From assembly GCF_013282575.1 (NCBI RefSeq), contig NZ_JAAAYE010000026.1, positions 1 through 64,000 of the forward strand: a DNA stretch of 64,000 nt. Reading direction: 5' to 3'. Of this stretch, positions 9,208 to 46,971 are shown one piece after another (positions within the stretch are counted from its first letter, which is position 1; each line of letters begins with the position of its first letter). Origin of the DNA: Paraburkholderia sp. NMBU_R16 (GTDB lineage: Bacteria; Pseudomonadota; Gammaproteobacteria; Burkholderiales; Burkholderiaceae). The position numbers and the translations under genes are program-made. The notes below the pieces were generated by a model. It saw only the letters and a program-made list of their open reading frames with translations. It searched no databases and had not been told where the DNA came from.

Positions 9208-10872
9208 CTAGACCTCGGTGCGCCTGAGCAGGTAATCGAGTCCGCCGACCCTGAACCACCTGTACCCATAAGGCTCGAGCACGACCGCGTGCCGGCCGTC
9301 GTTGCCGGCCTGGCTGTGGTCATCCGAGAGGAGGTTGATCAGGCGGTCGTCGCCGGGCCTGTCACAGCCGGAACGAAATCTCACGGTGCACGCCTCGGCG
9401 CTGAAGTTGTGCAGGCATAGGACCGAGTTGTTGCGCCAGTCATAACGCAGCCCAAGCACATCGTTTCGCGATGTGCGCAGCACCTCGAAATCGCCCCAGC
9501 CGATTTCGGGCATCTCGCGACGCATGCGGATCATCCGTTCCGTCCAGTTCAGAAACGACTCGGGATCGCGGCGCTGCTGCGCCACATTGACGCGCTCGAA
9601 ACCATAAGCTCCGCCTGAAATGACTGGCACAGGCGGCTTGGGATGTTTCGTGAATCCGCCTTGGGGCTCGACCGACCATTGCATCGGCGTACGCATGCTT
9701 TCGCGCTCGGGCCGGCGTAGGTCGTCGCCCATGCCGATCTCATCGCCGTAACGGATGACCGGTGTGCCCGGCAACGTCAACATCAGACTGTAGGCGAGTT
9801 CGAGCCGGCGTCTATCGCCCGACAGCATCGGCGCCAGCCGGCGGCGAATGCCGCGCTCGTACAGCTGCATGTCGGGTTCCGGGCCGAATGCCGCGAACAC
9901 CGCATCGCGCATTTCAGGTGGCAGCCGACCCAGATCGAGCTCGTCGTGATTGCGCAGGAATACGCCCCATTGCGCGCTCGCGGGGCGCGGCTTCGTTGCG
10001 ATCAGTGCCTGCTTCAGCGGTTTGGTGTCGCCCGTCGCAAGGGTGTAAAACGTATTCTGGTTCAGTTGGAAATTGAACATCATCGGCAAGCGCTCGCCCG
10101 CATCGCCGAAATACTGGAAATCCGTATCGGGCAGGACGTTCGCCTCCGCGAGAATGATTGCGTTGCCCTCGCGCCATTGCAAAAATTCTCGAAAGGCGCG
10201 CAACATCCCGTATTGCTCGATATGTTCGCGCACCTCGGCACCCTTAGCGGCAATCACGAACGGGACGGCATCCATCCGAAACCCCGATACGCCGAGTTGA
10301 ACCCAGAAGCCCATGATTTTCAGGAGCTCGGCATGAACCCAGGGATTGGATGTATTCAGGTCCGGTTGAAAATCGTAGAAGCGGTGAAAATACCAGCGCT
10401 TTGCCTGCTTGTCGAAACTCCATGTCGATTTTTGCACGCCGGGAAACACCACGCCGTCTTTCGCATGGGGGGGCTTCCTGTCGGACCACACGTACCAGTC
10501 CCGATAGCGGGAACCGGGATCGCTACGTGCTGACTGGAACCAGGGATGCTGGTCGGACGTGTGATTCACCACCAGGTCGATGATGACGCGCAAGCCCCGC
10601 TCGTCGCATGCATGCGTGAATTCGGAGAAGTCCCCGAGCGTGCCGTATTTCGGATCGACGTTGTAATAGTCCGTGATGTCGTACCCGTTATCGCGTCCCG
10701 GCGACGGCTGAAACGGCATGAGCCAGATCGTCGTCACGCCCAGTCCCTGCAGGTAATCGAGCCGCCGCATGAGACCCTGGAAGTCGCCGATGCCGTCGCC
10801 ATTGGCGTCGAGGAACCGGCCTACCGAAAGGCAATAGATGATGGCATTTTTATACCAGAGGTCGTTGAACAT
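9208..10872 (-). CDS. GH13 alpha-amylase family enzyme, trehalose-synthase-like
   Basis: 554 residues from the ATG at 10872. The reading frame stays open further upstream, but that part overlaps the divergent gene and has no homology. GH13 catalytic residues are visible: D201 (GFRMDAVPF, nucleophile), E243 (ILAEANVL, acid/base) and D310 (RNHDELDL). NHTSDQHPWFQSAR and RYGDEIGMGDD, together with the DAVPF context, resemble trehalose synthase (maltose glucosyl-trans-isomerase) more than oligo-glucosidases. A short beta-sandwich domain C closes the protein (LEPYGYRWFRV). It is divergent from the second GH13 gene, whose start is 39 bases away. Specificity is uncertain. Confidence 0.85.
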   Translation of the reverse strand: MFNDLWYKNAIIYCLSVGRFLDANGDGIGDFQGLMRRLDYLQGLGVTTIWLMPFQPSPGRDNGYDITDYYNVDPKYGTLGDFSEFTHACDERGLRVIIDLVVNHTSDQHPWFQSARSDPGSRYRDWYVWSDRKPPHAKDGVVFPGVQKSTWSFDKQAKRWYFHRFYDFQPDLNTSNPWVHAELLKIMGFWVQLGVSGFRMDAVPFVIAAKGAEVREHIEQYGMLRAFREFLQWREGNAIILAEANVLPDTDFQYFGDAGERLPMMFNFQLNQNTFYTLATGDTKPLKQALIATKPRPASAQWGVFLRNHDELDLGRLPPEMRDAVFAAFGPEPDMQLYERGIRRRLAPMLSGDRRRLELAYSLMLTLPGTPVIRYGDEIGMGDDLRRPERESMRTPMQWSVEPQGGFTKHPKPPVPVISGGAYGFERVNVAQQRRDPESFLNWTERMIRMRREMPEIGWGDFEVLRTSRNDVLGLRYDWRNNSVLCLHNFSAEACTVRFRSGCDRPGDDRLINLLSDDHSQAGNDGRHAVVLEPYGYRWFRVGGLDYLLRRTEV

Positions 10873-10911
10873 GCGGGGTGTCGAAACGATGAATCGTTGA
10901 GAGGAACGGCT

Positions 10912-12486
10912 ATGTCGGAGCTGAAATGGTGGCAACGTGGTGTCATTTACCAGATTTATCCGCGCTCGTTTCAAGACAGCAACGGCGACGGCATAGGCGA
11001 TCTGCCGGGCATCGCCGCGCGCCTCGGATATATCACCGCGCTCGGGGCCGATGCTGTATGGATTTCGCCCATCTATCCGTCTCCCATGGCCGACTTCGGT
11101 TACGACGTCGCCAACTACTGCGATATCGACCCCATCTTCGGCACGCTTGCCGAATTCCAGCAATTGGTGGACCACGCCCATCGGCTCGGCCTCAAGGTCC
11201 TGCTCGACTTCGTGCCCAACCACACCTCCGACCAGCATCCCTGGTTCGAGCTGAGCCGCTCGTCGCGGGACAATCCGAAGCGCGACTGGTACCTGTGGCG
11301 CGATCCGGCACCCGACGGAGGGCCGCCAAACAACTGGATGAGCAGAATGGGCGGCTCGGCGTGGGAGTGGGACGAAGCGACCGGGCAGTACTACTATCAC
11401 GCGTTTTTACGCGAGCAACCCGATCTGAATTGGCGCAATCCGCAAGTGCGCCGCGCCATGGACGACGTGCTGCGTTTCTGGCTGGATCGCGGCGTGGACG
11501 GATTCCGTGTCGATGTACTTTGGTTGCTGATCAAGGACGCGCAGTTTCGCGACAATCCTCCGAACCCCGCTTATCGGCCCGGTGAGCCAGGACATCACCG
11601 TCTATTGCAGACTTACACCGAGGATCAGCCGGAAGTGCACGAGATCGTGCGCTCGATGCGTGCCACGCTCAGCGAATATGGCGAAAAGGTGTTGATTGGC
11701 GAAATCTATCTGCCCATCGCTCGACTCATGACTTATTACGGGCCGAACGGCGACGGTGCCGATATGCCTTTCAACTTTCAGTTGCTCAACGCGGCGTGGC
11801 GCGCGGGCGATATCGCCCGCTTGATACGGGATTACAACAGTGCATTGCCCGAACATGCCTGGCCGAACTGGGTGCTCGGCAATCACGACAATCCCCGTGT
11901 CGCATCGCGCATCGGTGCGGACCAGGCGCGCGTGGCGGCCGTGTTGCTGCTGACATTGCGCGGCACCCCGACGCTCTATTACGGTGACGAAATCGGCATG
12001 ACCGACGGCCATATTCCGCCCGATGCGATTCGCGATCCGGCGGAGTTGAGACAACCCGGAATCGGGCAGGGGCGAGATCCGGAGCGTACGCCGATGCAGT
12101 GGGACGGTTCGCTGCCGAACGGCGGCTTCACGACCGGTCAGCCCTGGCTGCCGGTTGGCACGGCGACGAGTGTTCGAACGCAGGAGGACGACGCGTCGAG
12201 CCTGTTGTCGCTCTATCGTCGGCTGCTCGAGTTGCGGCGCAGCCACGCCGCGCTTGTGCGGGGCACGATAGCGAACGTCGGTGCCGAGGGCGACGTGCTG
12301 ACTTACGAACGGTGCCACGACGATGAGCGGCTCTTGATTGCGTTGAATATGGGCCGCGAAGATGCCACGGTATCTGCACATGGTGGCGTCGTGTTGCTAT
12401 CGACGCTTGCCGGCCGAGACGGTCAGCCGCTTCGAGAAGGCGTCAATCGACTCTCGGCCGGCGAAGCACTTGTCGCGGCTGTATGA
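10912..12486 (+). CDS. GH13 alpha-glucosidase (oligo-1,6-glucosidase type)
   Basis: 524 residues from the ATG at 10912, preceded by GAGGAAC. MSELKWWQRGVIYQIYPRSF is the classic start of alpha-glucosidases of GH13 subfamilies 17, 23 and 31. Catalytic residues: D201 (GFRVDVLWL), E264 (LIGEIYL) and D326 (GNHDNPRV). DEIGMTDGHIPP and the RTPMQWDGS loop match exo-acting alpha-glucosidases. No signal peptide is seen, so it should act in the cytoplasm on imported malto- or isomalto-oligosaccharides, possibly with the divergent GH13 enzyme. Confidence 0.9.
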   Translation: MSELKWWQRGVIYQIYPRSFQDSNGDGIGDLPGIAARLGYITALGADAVWISPIYPSPMADFGYDVANYCDIDPIFGTLAEFQQLVDHAHRLGLKVLLDFVPNHTSDQHPWFELSRSSRDNPKRDWYLWRDPAPDGGPPNNWMSRMGGSAWEWDEATGQYYYHAFLREQPDLNWRNPQVRRAMDDVLRFWLDRGVDGFRVDVLWLLIKDAQFRDNPPNPAYRPGEPGHHRLLQTYTEDQPEVHEIVRSMRATLSEYGEKVLIGEIYLPIARLMTYYGPNGDGADMPFNFQLLNAAWRAGDIARLIRDYNSALPEHAWPNWVLGNHDNPRVASRIGADQARVAAVLLLTLRGTPTLYYGDEIGMTDGHIPPDAIRDPAELRQPGIGQGRDPERTPMQWDGSLPNGGFTTGQPWLPVGTATSVRTQEDDASSLLSLYRRLLELRRSHAALVRGTIANVGAEGDVLTYERCHDDERLLIALNMGREDATVSAHGGVVLLSTLAGRDGQPLREGVNRLSAGEALVAAV

Positions 12487-29180: not shown

Positions 29181-29498
29181 TCAGCTGAACTGCCTGGCAG
29201 GTTGTGCGGCCAGCAAAATGGCTGCGTGCATCGCGCTCAGATCGCGGCCCGTATCGGTCGTTGCCAGGGCCGACAGCATCGCGGCGTCATCGAACCGGAT
29301 GTCGCAGACCAGGTCTTCGCTCTGGGCAAGCCTGACCGTTTGAGAAGGCGACAGCATCTGGATCAGGTTGGCCATCTGCGCCGACAAGCCCAGCCGGAAC
29401 ATGCCCTCGGCAAAATCGTCGTTGAGCATGTGCTGCGCGAGCATCAGATACGAGATGTTGAATTCGCGCATCGATTCGAGCGTTTCGCGATCGTTCAC
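29181..29498 (-). CDS. flhD: Flagellar transcriptional activator FlhD
   Basis: 105 residues from a GTG at 29498, chosen because GAAGAGG precedes it and the length then fits FlhD (an internal ATG at 29471 would cut the helix). It contains REFNISYLMLAQHMLNDDFAEGMFRLG and LSPSQTVRLAQSEDLVCDIRFDD. It is a partner of flhC. A second FlhD-like gene lies at 46678. Confidence 0.93.
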   Translation of the reverse strand: MNDRETLESMREFNISYLMLAQHMLNDDFAEGMFRLGLSAQMANLIQMLSPSQTVRLAQSEDLVCDIRFDDAAMLSALATTDTGRDLSAMHAAILLAAQPARQFS

Positions 29499-43066: not shown

Positions 43067-43277
43067 GCGTTCGAGCCCGGTCTTGCCCTAAATGGCGAGC
43101 CGGGCAAGCACAGTATTGCACCGCCGCAATCATCGAATACCCTGCCCAAGTTTCGGCTTTTCCTCGCTAAAGGCGACGAAATTCGTGTCGTTATCAGAGC
43201 TAACGGATTAGAAGCTCGAAGCGCTGCCGACGAGAAGCAGCGCAACCGTCGAAGAGCGAATACAAACGGGGTGTGTC

Positions 43278-44522
43278 GTGAATCAAAAACGATCGACCTG
43301 GACGCGCACGGCCGCGCCGGGAGAAGTCATCTATTCGGAAGGTTTCGCGGGCGAGCCCGTCATCTATGTGATTACGGAAGGCCGAGTCGAGATTTCCACA
43401 CACTGCGACGAAAAGAAGGTCGTTCTTGCGACGGTCGGCAAAGGCGAATTCTTCGGCGAAGCGGCGCTGTTGCCGAGCGAGCCCCGCGCGCAGACAGCCA
43501 AGGCGTTGAGTTTTTGCCAATTGACCGTCGTGCCGGCGAGCATGGTGGATGACGAGCTCGAGCGTGCTTCGCCGCTTCTGAAGCATTTGCTCAGAACGAC
43601 CATTCGCCGCGGGAAAAAGAAAGACGATCTGCTCGCTACCTACACCCATGCCGATTTCCTGCCGGGCGTGGTCTCGTACGCCCATGTACTGGCCCTGATG
43701 GCGAGTGGCGAAGGCATGGAAGCCTCGGATGGCTGGGGACGACGTTCACAGCCGGACGAGGTCGCGGTGACCTTGCCCAGCGTCATCGCGAAATGCCGCG
43801 CGATCGCCGGGCATTCTCGCCCGCACGTGATGACGATGCTCCGGCGCATGGAAAAGCTCAATCTCGTTGCCATGGAGTTGGGGCGGACGGAGCATCTGAG
43901 CAACAGCGGCCGCCACTCGACGAACGATGGCGCGACGGCTCGCCAGGTCGTGCGGTTCGATCCGGCTCGGATTATCGAGCGTGCACAACAGGTTGCCGAC
44001 CACGATCTCGATGTCGCGATCAACAGCGAGCTTGAACTGATCGAGCTCTCGGATCTCGAAGCGTTGATCGGCGTCGAGCGCAAGGTACTCATGAACAAGC
44101 TGTCGCATTCGGAGATTGCGGAGGACCTGTTCGCGTTTCGCAAGACGAACGTGCTCAGCTACGTCGAGCAAAAGGGCATCAGCTATTTCACGAAGCGCAA
44201 CGCTCGGCCGGGCGGCGAGGTGGCCTCGCTCGAGGATCTCGAGTATGTCGATCAACGCACGCTGTTCGAAGCGGTCAGCGCGACCGACACATACGATCTG
44301 GCCAAGATGCTTGCCGCGATGACGGACGAGGCTGTCGCCGAGCGGCTCCAATCGGTCATGACCGAAGCGCGCAAGAAAGAGGTCTCCTGGGTGATGCGCC
44401 GCGAGATCAAACTTGATCCGCTCGAAGTGAGCGATATCGAGCAGCGGTTCATCGAATCCGTCAGAGCGATCAGGATGGCGGCGGCGGGTGCGCCGGCCGA
44501 GCCGGTCAGACGCGAAGCCTGA
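43278..44522 (+). CDS. Crp-type cyclic-nucleotide/winged-helix protein fused to a FliG-like C-terminal domain
   Basis: 414 residues from a GTG at 43278. Residues 12-115 form a cNMP-binding barrel with a phosphate-binding cassette (GEFFGEAALLPSEPRAQTAKA region, E61 and R70). Residues 128-200 look like a Crp winged helix (LPSVIAKCRAIAGHSRPHVMTML). From about 248 two FliG-like helical repeats follow; the second (318-398) matches FliG_C closely: LEDLEYVDQRTLFEAV for EDIxxxDDRSIQxxL, DTYDLAKMLAAMTDEA for DTxDLAxALKGASxE, and EVSDIEQRFIESVRAI at the end. The gene directly precedes a MotA-like/MotB-like pair. Such a joining of a Crp-type sensor to a rotor-type domain is, to my knowledge, not a described flagellar part. 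Confidence 0.75.
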   Translation: MNQKRSTWTRTAAPGEVIYSEGFAGEPVIYVITEGRVEISTHCDEKKVVLATVGKGEFFGEAALLPSEPRAQTAKALSFCQLTVVPASMVDDELERASPLLKHLLRTTIRRGKKKDDLLATYTHADFLPGVVSYAHVLALMASGEGMEASDGWGRRSQPDEVAVTLPSVIAKCRAIAGHSRPHVMTMLRRMEKLNLVAMELGRTEHLSNSGRHSTNDGATARQVVRFDPARIIERAQQVADHDLDVAINSELELIELSDLEALIGVERKVLMNKLSHSEIAEDLFAFRKTNVLSYVEQKGISYFTKRNARPGGEVASLEDLEYVDQRTLFEAVSATDTYDLAKMLAAMTDEAVAERLQSVMTEARKKEVSWVMRREIKLDPLEVSDIEQRFIESVRAIRMAAAGAPAEPVRREA

Positions 44523-44613
44523 ATGCCCCCCCCCGGCATGACGAGTCGGCCGCGACGGTCATGCCGCGCATGAAGCGGCGAAGCGAGCCGCGCGGCGCGC
44601 AAAGGAACACACT

Positions 44614-45378
44614 ATGGACTTGCTGACGATATTCGGCGCGCTGCTGGGCACAGCCGCAATTGCGACGGGTTTTTGGCTGGAAGGCGGGCATTTTTCGACG
44701 CTCTTTCAACTCGAGGCCTTTGTCATCGTGCTCGGCGGTACGCTGAGCGCAGTGATGATCCAGAATACCTGGGCCCGCTTTTTCGACGGCATCAAGCAAC
44801 TGCATCTCGCGTTCATGAAACCGCGGACTGTCGATCGCGAGAGCCTGTCGGTCCTGCTCGAATGGGGGGATCGGGCCAAGCTCAACGGCATGCTGGCTTT
44901 CGAGTCGCTCGATACGAGCGGCATCAATCCGTTCGCGCGGCGCGGCCTCGAGCTGTTGGCGAACGGTGTCTCGACCGCGGTGCTCGAAGACGCGTTGCAA
45001 CGCGAACTCGCGGCCTACGAGCGTAATCGGATGGCCGCCGCACGCATCTGGCAGCAGGCCGGCGGTTATGCGCCGACGTTCGGCATTCTGGGTGCCGTGC
45101 TCGGGCTGGTGCATGTCACCGGCCATATCCTCGAACCCGCTCAGCTCGGGGCCGGCATTGCCGCGGCCTTTACCGCGACGCTTTACGGACTGGCGATCGC
45201 CAATATCGTGTTCCTGCCGCTTTACGGCAAGATCAAGGCGCAAGTCGAAAGCGAGCTGCGCTTCAGGCGGCTCTACCTCGATGGTTTGCTAGCGATCTCG
45301 CGCAAGGAGTCGCCTCAGACGATCGAAACGCGTCTTGCCGGCGAAGTCCGCGAGCGCTCCGCCGAGCTTTTGGCCTGA
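44614..45378 (+). CDS. MotA/TolQ/ExbB-type ion-channel stator protein
   Basis: 254 residues from the ATG at 44614 (AAAGGAAC upstream). Four membrane segments in MotA order, with LEAFVIVLGGTLSAVMIQ in segment 2, a cytoplasmic charged loop (about 70-150), GGYAPTFGILGAVLGLVHV in segment 3 and FLPLYGKIKAQVESE after segment 4. The two conserved MotA prolines are present in segments 3 and 4. It is shorter than E. coli MotA (295) and more like MotC/PomA-size proteins. Partner of the MotB-like protein at 45446. Confidence 0.88.
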   Translation: MDLLTIFGALLGTAAIATGFWLEGGHFSTLFQLEAFVIVLGGTLSAVMIQNTWARFFDGIKQLHLAFMKPRTVDRESLSVLLEWGDRAKLNGMLAFESLDTSGINPFARRGLELLANGVSTAVLEDALQRELAAYERNRMAAARIWQQAGGYAPTFGILGAVLGLVHVTGHILEPAQLGAGIAAAFTATLYGLAIANIVFLPLYGKIKAQVESELRFRRLYLDGLLAISRKESPQTIETRLAGEVRERSAELLA

Positions 45379-45445
45379 TCGGCCGTCCGCGCCGGCTTTT
45401 CCCGGTTGTCGGGCAGCCGGACCGCTTTGACGAGGTTTTCGTGCC

Positions 45446-46147
45446 ATGAATATTTTCGCGGGGGGCAAGCGCCTGGCGTCCGACATCGGCGGACGCGAGC
45501 GCGAGGAGGATAGCGACGAGCACTCGGAGCGCTGGCTCATTTCCTATGCCGATCTCATCACCACGTTGATGGTTTTTTTCCTGGCGCTGTACGTGCTGCA
45601 GCTTGCCCGGTACCGTGAGCTCGAGAGCAAGGCGTTCGAACAGCGCATCGTGAAACAACACGAGCAGGCGGCTGCGGCCAGTGCGGCGAATGCCCGCGAC
45701 GGCGTGCGCGAGGGCGCAAAAAAGACGTTGATGGCATTGCTCGAGCCTTTCCGCGATAGCGGTCAGATCGCCATGGTCGATACACCGCAAGGGCTCGAAA
45801 TCGCAATCAACGCCCGGGTTCTGTTCAATTCGGGCGATGCGCGGTTGTTGCCCGATTCTTTCGCGGTGCTGACCGAGGTTGCCCAGGTGCTGGCCGATCA
45901 TTCCACCCGCAACGTGCTCGTCGAGGGGCACAGCGACAGCATTCCGATTTCGAACGCGAAGTACGCGTCGAATTGGGAGCTGTCATCGGCTCGCGCGGGG
46001 GCCGTCGTGCGTTTTCTCGTCGACAAGGGCGTCGCCCCGCATCGATTGTCCGCCGTCGGCCGGGCCGACAACGATCCCCTCGTGCTCGGCGGCGACGAGG
46101 CGGCCCGCGCGGCGAATCGGCGCGTGACGATTCTCGTTCAATACTGA
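45446..46147 (+). CDS. MotB/OmpA-type stator protein
   Basis: 233 residues. A basic/acidic N-terminus is followed by one membrane segment ISYADLITTLMVFFLALYVL, where D36 equals the ion-carrying Asp of MotB. A linker (60-110) follows and then an OmpA-like peptidoglycan-binding domain (VEGHSDSIPISNAKYASNWELS split; LSAVGRADNDPL). It is shorter than MotB (308). The start has a weak ribosome site. Together with the MotA-like protein it should form an ion-driven stator anchored to peptidoglycan. Confidence 0.9.
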   Translation: MNIFAGGKRLASDIGGREREEDSDEHSERWLISYADLITTLMVFFLALYVLQLARYRELESKAFEQRIVKQHEQAAAASAANARDGVREGAKKTLMALLEPFRDSGQIAMVDTPQGLEIAINARVLFNSGDARLLPDSFAVLTEVAQVLADHSTRNVLVEGHSDSIPISNAKYASNWELSSARAGAVVRFLVDKGVAPHRLSAVGRADNDPLVLGGDEAARAANRRVTILVQY

Positions 46148-46399
46148 GGCGGGCACGCACGGTAGTTTTTGCCGCTTCCGTCGATCCGGCCCCATTCGGT
46201 GCCCGCGCTTTTGGTCAGGCGCCGTAGTTCTGGCGGCCCGCGCGCGTAGGAAAGCGCTGACAAGCCTACCTCCACGTATTACGTGCGGTTCAGCGTCGGC
46301 TGATTTGCTTCGGCGTTCGTCTGGCCGATACTTTGGTCACAGGAATCCGGTTTTATTTGCAGCCGATCCGATTTGAAGGCTCCACCGCAGGAGATTGAA
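46148..46399. other. Spacer after the MotB-like gene
   Basis: No gene, repeat or terminator is recognised in these 252 bases. At the right end, AGGAG (46389) begins a plausible ribosome site for a 46-codon frame. Confidence 0.4.
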
Positions 46400-46540
46400 A
46401 TGAGCCGCATAGCGCAAGACCTGCTCGAACTCAAGCGCCTTACGCAGGATGGCGCCGGTGCACTGACGCAGCATCTGCTGCGCGAAGTGGCTGCGAATCT
46501 GATCGCATTTGGGGTAGCTGACCAACGCAGCGGTGGCTGA
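46400..46540 (+). CDS. Small hypothetical ORF (46 residues)
   Basis: ATG at 46400 with AGGAG ending 6 bases before it. The peptide starts MSRIAQDLLELKRLTQDGAG and is amphipathic, continuing TQHLLREVAANLIAFG. No family is recognised. It lies between the MotB-like gene and the FlhD paralogue on the same strand. Its case rests on the ribosome site and helical pattern only. Confidence 0.4.
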   Translation: MSRIAQDLLELKRLTQDGAGALTQHLLREVAANLIAFGVADQRSGG

Positions 46541-46553
46541 CACGCGCAGGTCG

Positions 46554-46691
46554 ATGACGCAAACGTTTGCGTGGCGTGCGAAGGAGATTGAAAACATCCC
46601 GCGTAAGGCGGAGAAGACCCAGGCAATCAGGGATCTAACAATAGAGCAGCAAACTCGGATAGAAGCAGAGGAAAGCTATGAACGCCTTTAA
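46554..46691 (+). CDS. Second small hypothetical ORF (45 residues), overlapping the FlhD-like start
   Basis: ATG at 46554. The peptide is highly charged (RAKEIENIPRKAEK, IEQQTRIEAEESYERL) and stops 14 bases inside the FlhD-like gene, which could couple their translation. It has a weak ribosome site. A perfect 16-bp palindrome sits across its codons 2-7, so the region may be regulatory rather than coding. Confidence 0.2.
   Translation: MTQTFAWRAKEIENIPRKAEKTQAIRDLTIEQQTRIEAEESYERL
46557..46572. promoter_or_regulatory. Perfect 16-bp palindrome, LacI/PurR-type operator
   Basis: ACGCAAACGTTTGCGT, a perfect dyad centred on CG and almost identical to the E. coli PurR consensus. LacI-family proteins bind such sites with a central CpG. 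It lies 105 bases before the FlhD-like start. No LacI-family gene is in the window. Confidence 0.6.
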
Positions 46692-46971
46692 TAACCACGA
46701 ATCGATCCGCGAAATCAACTTGTCGTATCTGACACTCGTGCAGCGGTTGCTGCGCGAAGACCGTAACGAAGGAATGGCGAAGCTGGGCTTGACGGCTTCA
46801 TTGGCGGAAGTGCTGTCGGGTCTTTCGCCGGAGCAAACCTTGAAGCTTGCGTCGCGCGATCAACTCGTGTGCTTCTTCCGCCTGAACGGAGATGCCATGC
46901 TGGGCGCCCTCGGTACGCCCGCGGCGGCACAGCCCGTCGCTCAGGAGCCAGCGCAAGCGCTCGCTGCCTGA
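46678..46971 (+). CDS. FlhD-like protein (lone paralogue)
   Basis: 97 residues from the ATG at 46678 (AGAGGAAAGCT upstream). IREINLSYLTLVQRLLREDRNEGMAKLGL and LSPEQTLKLASRDQLVCFFRLNGDAML align with FlhD along its core helices. An Ala/Gln/Pro-rich tail replaces the FlhD C-terminus. There is no FlhC gene beside it; the complete flhDC pair lies at 28637-29498. It may modulate FlhC or act alone. A terminator follows. Confidence 0.9.
   Translation: MNAFNNHESIREINLSYLTLVQRLLREDRNEGMAKLGLTASLAEVLSGLSPEQTLKLASRDQLVCFFRLNGDAMLGALGTPAAAQPVAQEPAQALAA

Follow-up and report, generated by a model that had tools for sequence, protein, structure and literature searches.

A cyclic nucleotide sensor-FliG fusion protein heads a conserved, most likely late flagellar, stator operon in Paraburkholderia and related genera

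The window, by which we mean the whole stretch of 64,000 nucleotides from Paraburkholderia sp. NMBU_R16 that was analysed, carries a module of three consecutive genes, encoding a 414-residue protein, here named CFG, and the MotA-like and MotB-like subunits of a stator, with a sigma28 (FliA)-type promoter in front. CFG joins a cyclic nucleotide monophosphate (cNMP)-binding domain to the torque domain of FliG, and we consider it a real sensor-FliG fusion. The open frames of the three proteins, as well as that of an FlhD protein farther downstream, had been proposed in an earlier note on this DNA and were all confirmed (Table 1).

In the Pfam comparison, the CFG of the window alone falls under the FliG cut-off (15.0 versus 23.3 bits, E 0.031), yet 26 of 28 CFG homologues match FliG at E<=1, with a best E of 2.4e-5, and the cut-off is passed in 11 of the 25 module genomes. 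Among the folds compared with the predicted CFG structures, FliG_C ranks ahead of the others, the matched span comprising only residues 315 to 403 or thereabouts, and in the structural alignment positions 97 to 184 of the CFG model lie on residues 236 to 322 of FliG with one residue unaligned. Two sequence-only tests of the similarity gave no support, and neither FliG_N nor FliG_M is listed by Pfam for CFG at E<=10. We regard the similarity to FliG as real. Of the two FliG_C-like repeats that the earlier note had placed at residues 248 to 400, one FliG domain is upheld, at about residues 316 to 403, whereas the other is not supported, since residues 220 to 319 or so are predicted with a low-confidence fold (block pLDDT 42 to 75) and the structural matches do not extend over them. 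A weak PADLOC match of residues 278 to 361 to AbiEi (E 1.7e-4), overlapping the FliG domain, was taken as chance.

The cNMP-binding domain of the window protein is matched by Pfam with an E of 1.8e-17, and the phosphate cassette is conserved, with E61 kept in 76 of 76 sequences and R70 in 75. The region upstream of the linker resembles the winged helices of the CAP/CRP type, with a putative recognition helix that hardly varies (S180, R181, H183 and V184, each in 76/76) and presents an SR-xx-V pattern that we take to be the one of CRP/FNR proteins. The cNMP barrel with its cassette stands as the earlier note described it, while the CRP-like helix-turn-helix, although favoured by these matches, is graded as probable only. 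The count over 76 rows leaves out the copies of L066, L076, L085, L098 and L119 and contains no Caballeronia copy; outside it, in the CFG alignment (A1), L033 has a proline at position 180 and L059 lacks S180 and R181, and the CFG of L050 was dropped from the same alignment for an in-frame stop in its frame call.

As for the stator pair, the MotA-like protein matches MotA_ExbB (PF01618, E 3.8e-25) and MotA_N in Pfam, and it exceeds the NCBIfam cut-off of PRK09109 (248.2 versus 237 bits), presumably the MotC model, which is matched by all 27 aligned MotA-like copies (best E 8.4e-76). Its prolines P154 and P202, already singled out in the earlier note, are kept in 81 of 81 sequences, and the same holds for K89 and E97, which align with R and E in the solved structures of MotA and PomA, with K in place of R; in E. 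coli MotA, we take the charged loop residues in contact with the rotor to be R90 and E98. The MotB-like protein has the membrane-plug aspartate D36 (81/81) and, in Pfam, the MotB_plug and OmpA domains, in agreement with what had been noted for it; its best NCBIfam model is MotD, under the cut-off (182.2 versus 283 bits). The MotA of L033 was dropped from the MotA alignment (A2) because of an in-frame stop in the frame call, and L059, with no MotAB, is absent from both A2 and A3. Two further MotAB pairs occur in the window genome, one with MotA (TIGR03818) and MotB both above the NCBIfam cut-offs, the other adjoining flhC, with MotB above its cut-off and MotA above that of Pfam. In a flagellar cluster of this genome (L186, 379 to 1992), flhC and motA form one 537-residue frame with FlhC, MotA_N and MotA_ExbB domains, either a real fusion or an effect of the draft sequence.

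A contig scan found 106 relatives, the best 80 of which, from Burkholderia, Paraburkholderia or Trinickia, constitute the named set. All 80 named loci have the order CFG-MotA-MotB on the same strand, as do 27 of 28 loci of an overlapping set, the exception being L059, a relative with 35% identity; the two sets share contigs, so that their counts are not additive, and a further alignment (A4) has 40 rows, namely, the window, 38 of the 80 named loci and L059. Grouped by common flanking genes, the 80 loci represent 17 contexts, in which CFG, MotA and MotB make up a self-contained unit. Therefore, the FliG profile comparison and the survey of neighbourhoods both favour a unit of CFG and stator. 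At one locus, L095 of Trinickia terrae, a 322-residue frame that looks hydrolase-like by eye lies between MotA and MotB (10030 to 10998). CFG is also present on eight plasmid or megaplasmid records, two of which are from Caballeronia, and in 72 of the 299 genomes of a family sample, under 5 of 25 genus labels; in a phylum-wide sample of 299 genomes, the matches listed outside the window's own genome cover only profile positions 4 to 148, the cNMP end. Flagellar FliG accompanies the module in 25 of 25 genomes, which is weak evidence because it is also present in 13 of 21 genomes that lack the module.

To evaluate the control of the module, a sigma28 consensus fixed beforehand was scored on the 300 bp upstream of CFG. 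A score of at least 9/13 was reached by 48 of 81 upstream regions, but by only 6 of their 81 reverse complements, and random stretches attained it in 7.4% of cases. For a score of at least 10/13, the corresponding values were 18 of 81, 1 of 81 and 1.6%. In an alignment of 33 upstream regions, the sigma28-type element stands out as the chief conserved block apart from the ribosome site, and the refined pattern occurs at -100 to -149 in 79 of 80 named loci, with 73 sites at -109 to -122, although 2.70 million strand-bases contain only 89 sites in all. The sole miss, L061, has a similar site, differing in the first base, at -79. All 48 held-out loci, which lie outside the alignment, and all 4 plasmid loci carry the site, which is found at -114 in L059. 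In the window it is the only strict-pattern match in 64 kb; no such site was found before MotA or MotB, and the flagellin gene of the window genome bears one of the same kind. The agreement over 17 contexts and a Caballeronia record is hard to explain otherwise, even though the genomes are not independent, and the CFG operon is most likely one of the late flagellar class. The leader of the window also contains an inverted repeat (GCGCTGC...GCAGCGC, 43221 to 43243). Other clades show different repeats at similar places, but the folding energy is not unusual overall, with a median z of -0.58 over 81 leaders, and a 5'-leader hairpin is not claimed.

Table 1. Coordinates of the CFG module and associated features in the window
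Feature	Position	Strand	Details
Sigma28 (FliA)-type promoter	43167..43194	+	CTAAAG-N14-GTCGTTAT, 111 bp upstream of CFG start codon
CFG gene	43278..44522	+	414 aa, GTG start; cNMP-binding domain, probable CRP-like winged helix, linker without a clear fold, FliG torque domain
cNMP-binding domain	43305..43562	+	CFG residues 10-95; Pfam PF00027
Probable helix-turn-helix and wing	43761..43880	+	CFG residues 162-201
FliG torque domain	44223..44486	+	CFG residues 316-403
MotA-like (MotC-type) stator subunit gene	44614..45378	+	254 aa; NCBIfam PRK09109
MotB-like (MotD-type) stator subunit gene	45446..46147	+	233 aa; D36, Pfam MotB_plug and OmpA
FlhD gene	46678..46971		97 aa; Pfam FlhD

The surroundings of the module in the window are genes of purine degradation, as assigned by Pfam, with OHCU decarboxylase, allantoicase and ureidoglycolate lyase upstream and urate oxidase and HIUase downstream, and the fliG and flagellin genes are located on another contig. 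The FlhD gene of Table 1, which the earlier note had drawn into the CFG system, is a genuine FlhD frame, but its membership of the unit was discarded, since FlhD stands beside the module at none of the 80 named loci. A second FlhD paralogue lies in the window at 29196 to 29495, and the genome has five FlhD copies. Chemoreceptor genes occur in 28 of 81 loci, belonging to 4 of the 17 contexts, with none in the 20 kb of the window that were covered; in 19 of these 28 loci the gene starts no more than 300 bp from the MotB end (18 of them in one Burkholderia context), and on one Paraburkholderia plasmid a chemoreceptor gene is upstream of CFG. At L077 (10832 to 12739), Pfam identifies a cNMP-binding domain joined to a pyridine nucleotide-disulphide oxidoreductase; similar frames bring the total to ten loci, at eight of which they are directly behind the module.

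By computation, the domain make-up was established, and the gene order, the sigma28-type promoter, the stator residues of the ion channel and of the rotor contact, and the cNMP pocket proved to be conserved. The reading towards which we lean, with considerable reserve, is that of a late flagellar operon, dependent on sigma28, for an auxiliary stator of the MotCD type together with its own nucleotide-gated regulator, CFG. The FliG-like torque domain of CFG would bind the cytoplasmic loop of the cognate MotA-like ring at the site used by the rotor FliG, and the binding of a cyclic nucleotide, for which cAMP is the simplest guess given the intact pocket, would change the affinity of CFG for the stator. 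CFG could then behave as a nucleotide-gated clutch or decoy, controlling the moment at which the spare stator is taken up by the flagellar motor. The least certain step is a feedback of stator occupancy on transcription, which may arise if the CRP-type helix-turn-helix has retained an ability to bind DNA. In our opinion, an auxiliary stator with a dedicated nucleotide-responsive regulator that has borrowed a torque domain would be the simplest account.

Several points weigh against this account. The structural ranges, rather than a residue-by-residue register, place the conserved E363, S370 and W371 of CFG at what we take to be the charged torque-helix positions of FliG, and because the charges are apparently replaced, contact of the canonical rotor type should not be taken for granted. 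The distant relative in L059 (8429 to 9583) keeps the promoter and the FliG core and has no adjoining MotAB; given this case, CFG may act without a linked stator. Moreover, the association of chemoreceptors with the module is patchy, at 4 of 17 contexts, and the sigma28 control is a deduction from DNA sequence in related genomes that are not independent. By eye, the CFG of L059 adjoins a sigma54-type activator.

Among the other explanations, it is possible to hypothesize, at a rather low probability, a motor-coupled transcription switch, in which CFG, as a CRP-family protein, would compete with FliG for the dedicated stator and pass load and cyclic nucleotide signals to DNA. Just as tentatively, CFG may be a transcription factor tethered to the stator, held at the membrane on the MotA-like ring and freed when load or surface contact draws the stators into the motor, thus working as a mechanosensing switch; the CAP/CRP-type matches with the near-invariant putative recognition helix, the intact cNMP pocket and the position of the stator genes directly after CFG are consistent with it. 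We deem improbable that CFG regulates all flagellar stators or the rotor FliG by competing for any MotA, with the linked stator as a passenger: L059 fits this proposal, and the nucleotide-binding YcgR offers a parallel, being described as a binder of both MotA and FliG (PMC10140304), but a single stator pair is linked to CFG in 80/80 named loci, spread over 17 contexts, which points to a dedicated partner. The least probable explanation, a separate non-flagellar machine in which a MotAB-like ring turns or strains CFG, for instance in envelope sensing or defence, finds support in the purine-degradation context, in the distance from fliG and flagellin, in the self-contained nature of the three genes and in the non-flagellar uses of MotAB-like proteins, such as Zorya, but it contrasts with the sigma28-type promoter in 79/80 loci and with the lack of a ZorA match or Zorya partner among the proteins scanned. 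The earlier note had preferred such a separate system over a standard flagellar motor, which is contradicted by the conserved promoter and by a MotA above the PRK09109 cut-off.

In the listed titles and abstract openings of open-licence papers, we found no description of a cNMP-FliG protein or of its operon. The parts are already known, and it is their combination and its regulation that appear new. The FliG torque domain is apparently usable outside the rotor, and the module suggests a new mode of motor tuning in bacteria. Since it brings together a cNMP pocket, a probable DNA-binding fold, the stator-binding domain of the rotor, an apparent flagellar-class promoter and its own stator, it represents a compact and genetically tractable system for the open question of how bacterial cells perceive contact with a surface and select among their stators.

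Compared with known systems, the module resembles Zorya in having MotAB-like proteins outside a flagellar cluster and a MotB-like protein that matches ZorB models. Different from Zorya, it bears a sigma28-type promoter; the 254-residue MotA-like protein has no ZorA match at E<=1, and no ZorC, ZorD or ZorE was found among 11 proteins scanned, four of the module region (E<=1) and seven flanking ones (E<=0.001), the latter also giving no match in a PADLOC scan, so that the parallel drawn in the earlier note was not borne out. With MotC/MotD of Pseudomonas, it shares a MotA above the PRK09109 cut-off, MotD as the best match of MotB and the condition of an extra stator beside two MotAB pairs, whereas its MotB is under the MotD cut-off and its operon begins with CFG, a gene that, to our knowledge, does not belong to the Pseudomonas pair. 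For B. terrae BS001, three pairs of motA/motB genes are reported and no homologue of MotCD (PMC5462819). Different from FliG, CFG has no detected N-terminal or middle domain, its torque-helix charges are apparently replaced and it is fused to a CRP-like protein. It resembles CRP/FNR regulators in the cNMP barrel with an intact phosphate cassette and in the probable winged helix, and differs from them in about 200 extra residues ending in the FliG domain and in the stator genes that follow in 80/80 named loci. YcgR, a PilZ-type c-di-GMP protein of the late flagellar class, has neither a FliG domain nor a dedicated stator, whereas CFG has both in addition to its cNMP barrel; the two are comparable in role, not in make-up, CFG being predicted to bind a nucleotide and expected at the stator-rotor interface in the manner of c-di-GMP-bound YcgR. 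YcgR is an example of a nucleotide-binding protein that can act through contact with MotA and FliG (PMC10140304). CFG would act in the same way by mimicry of FliG.
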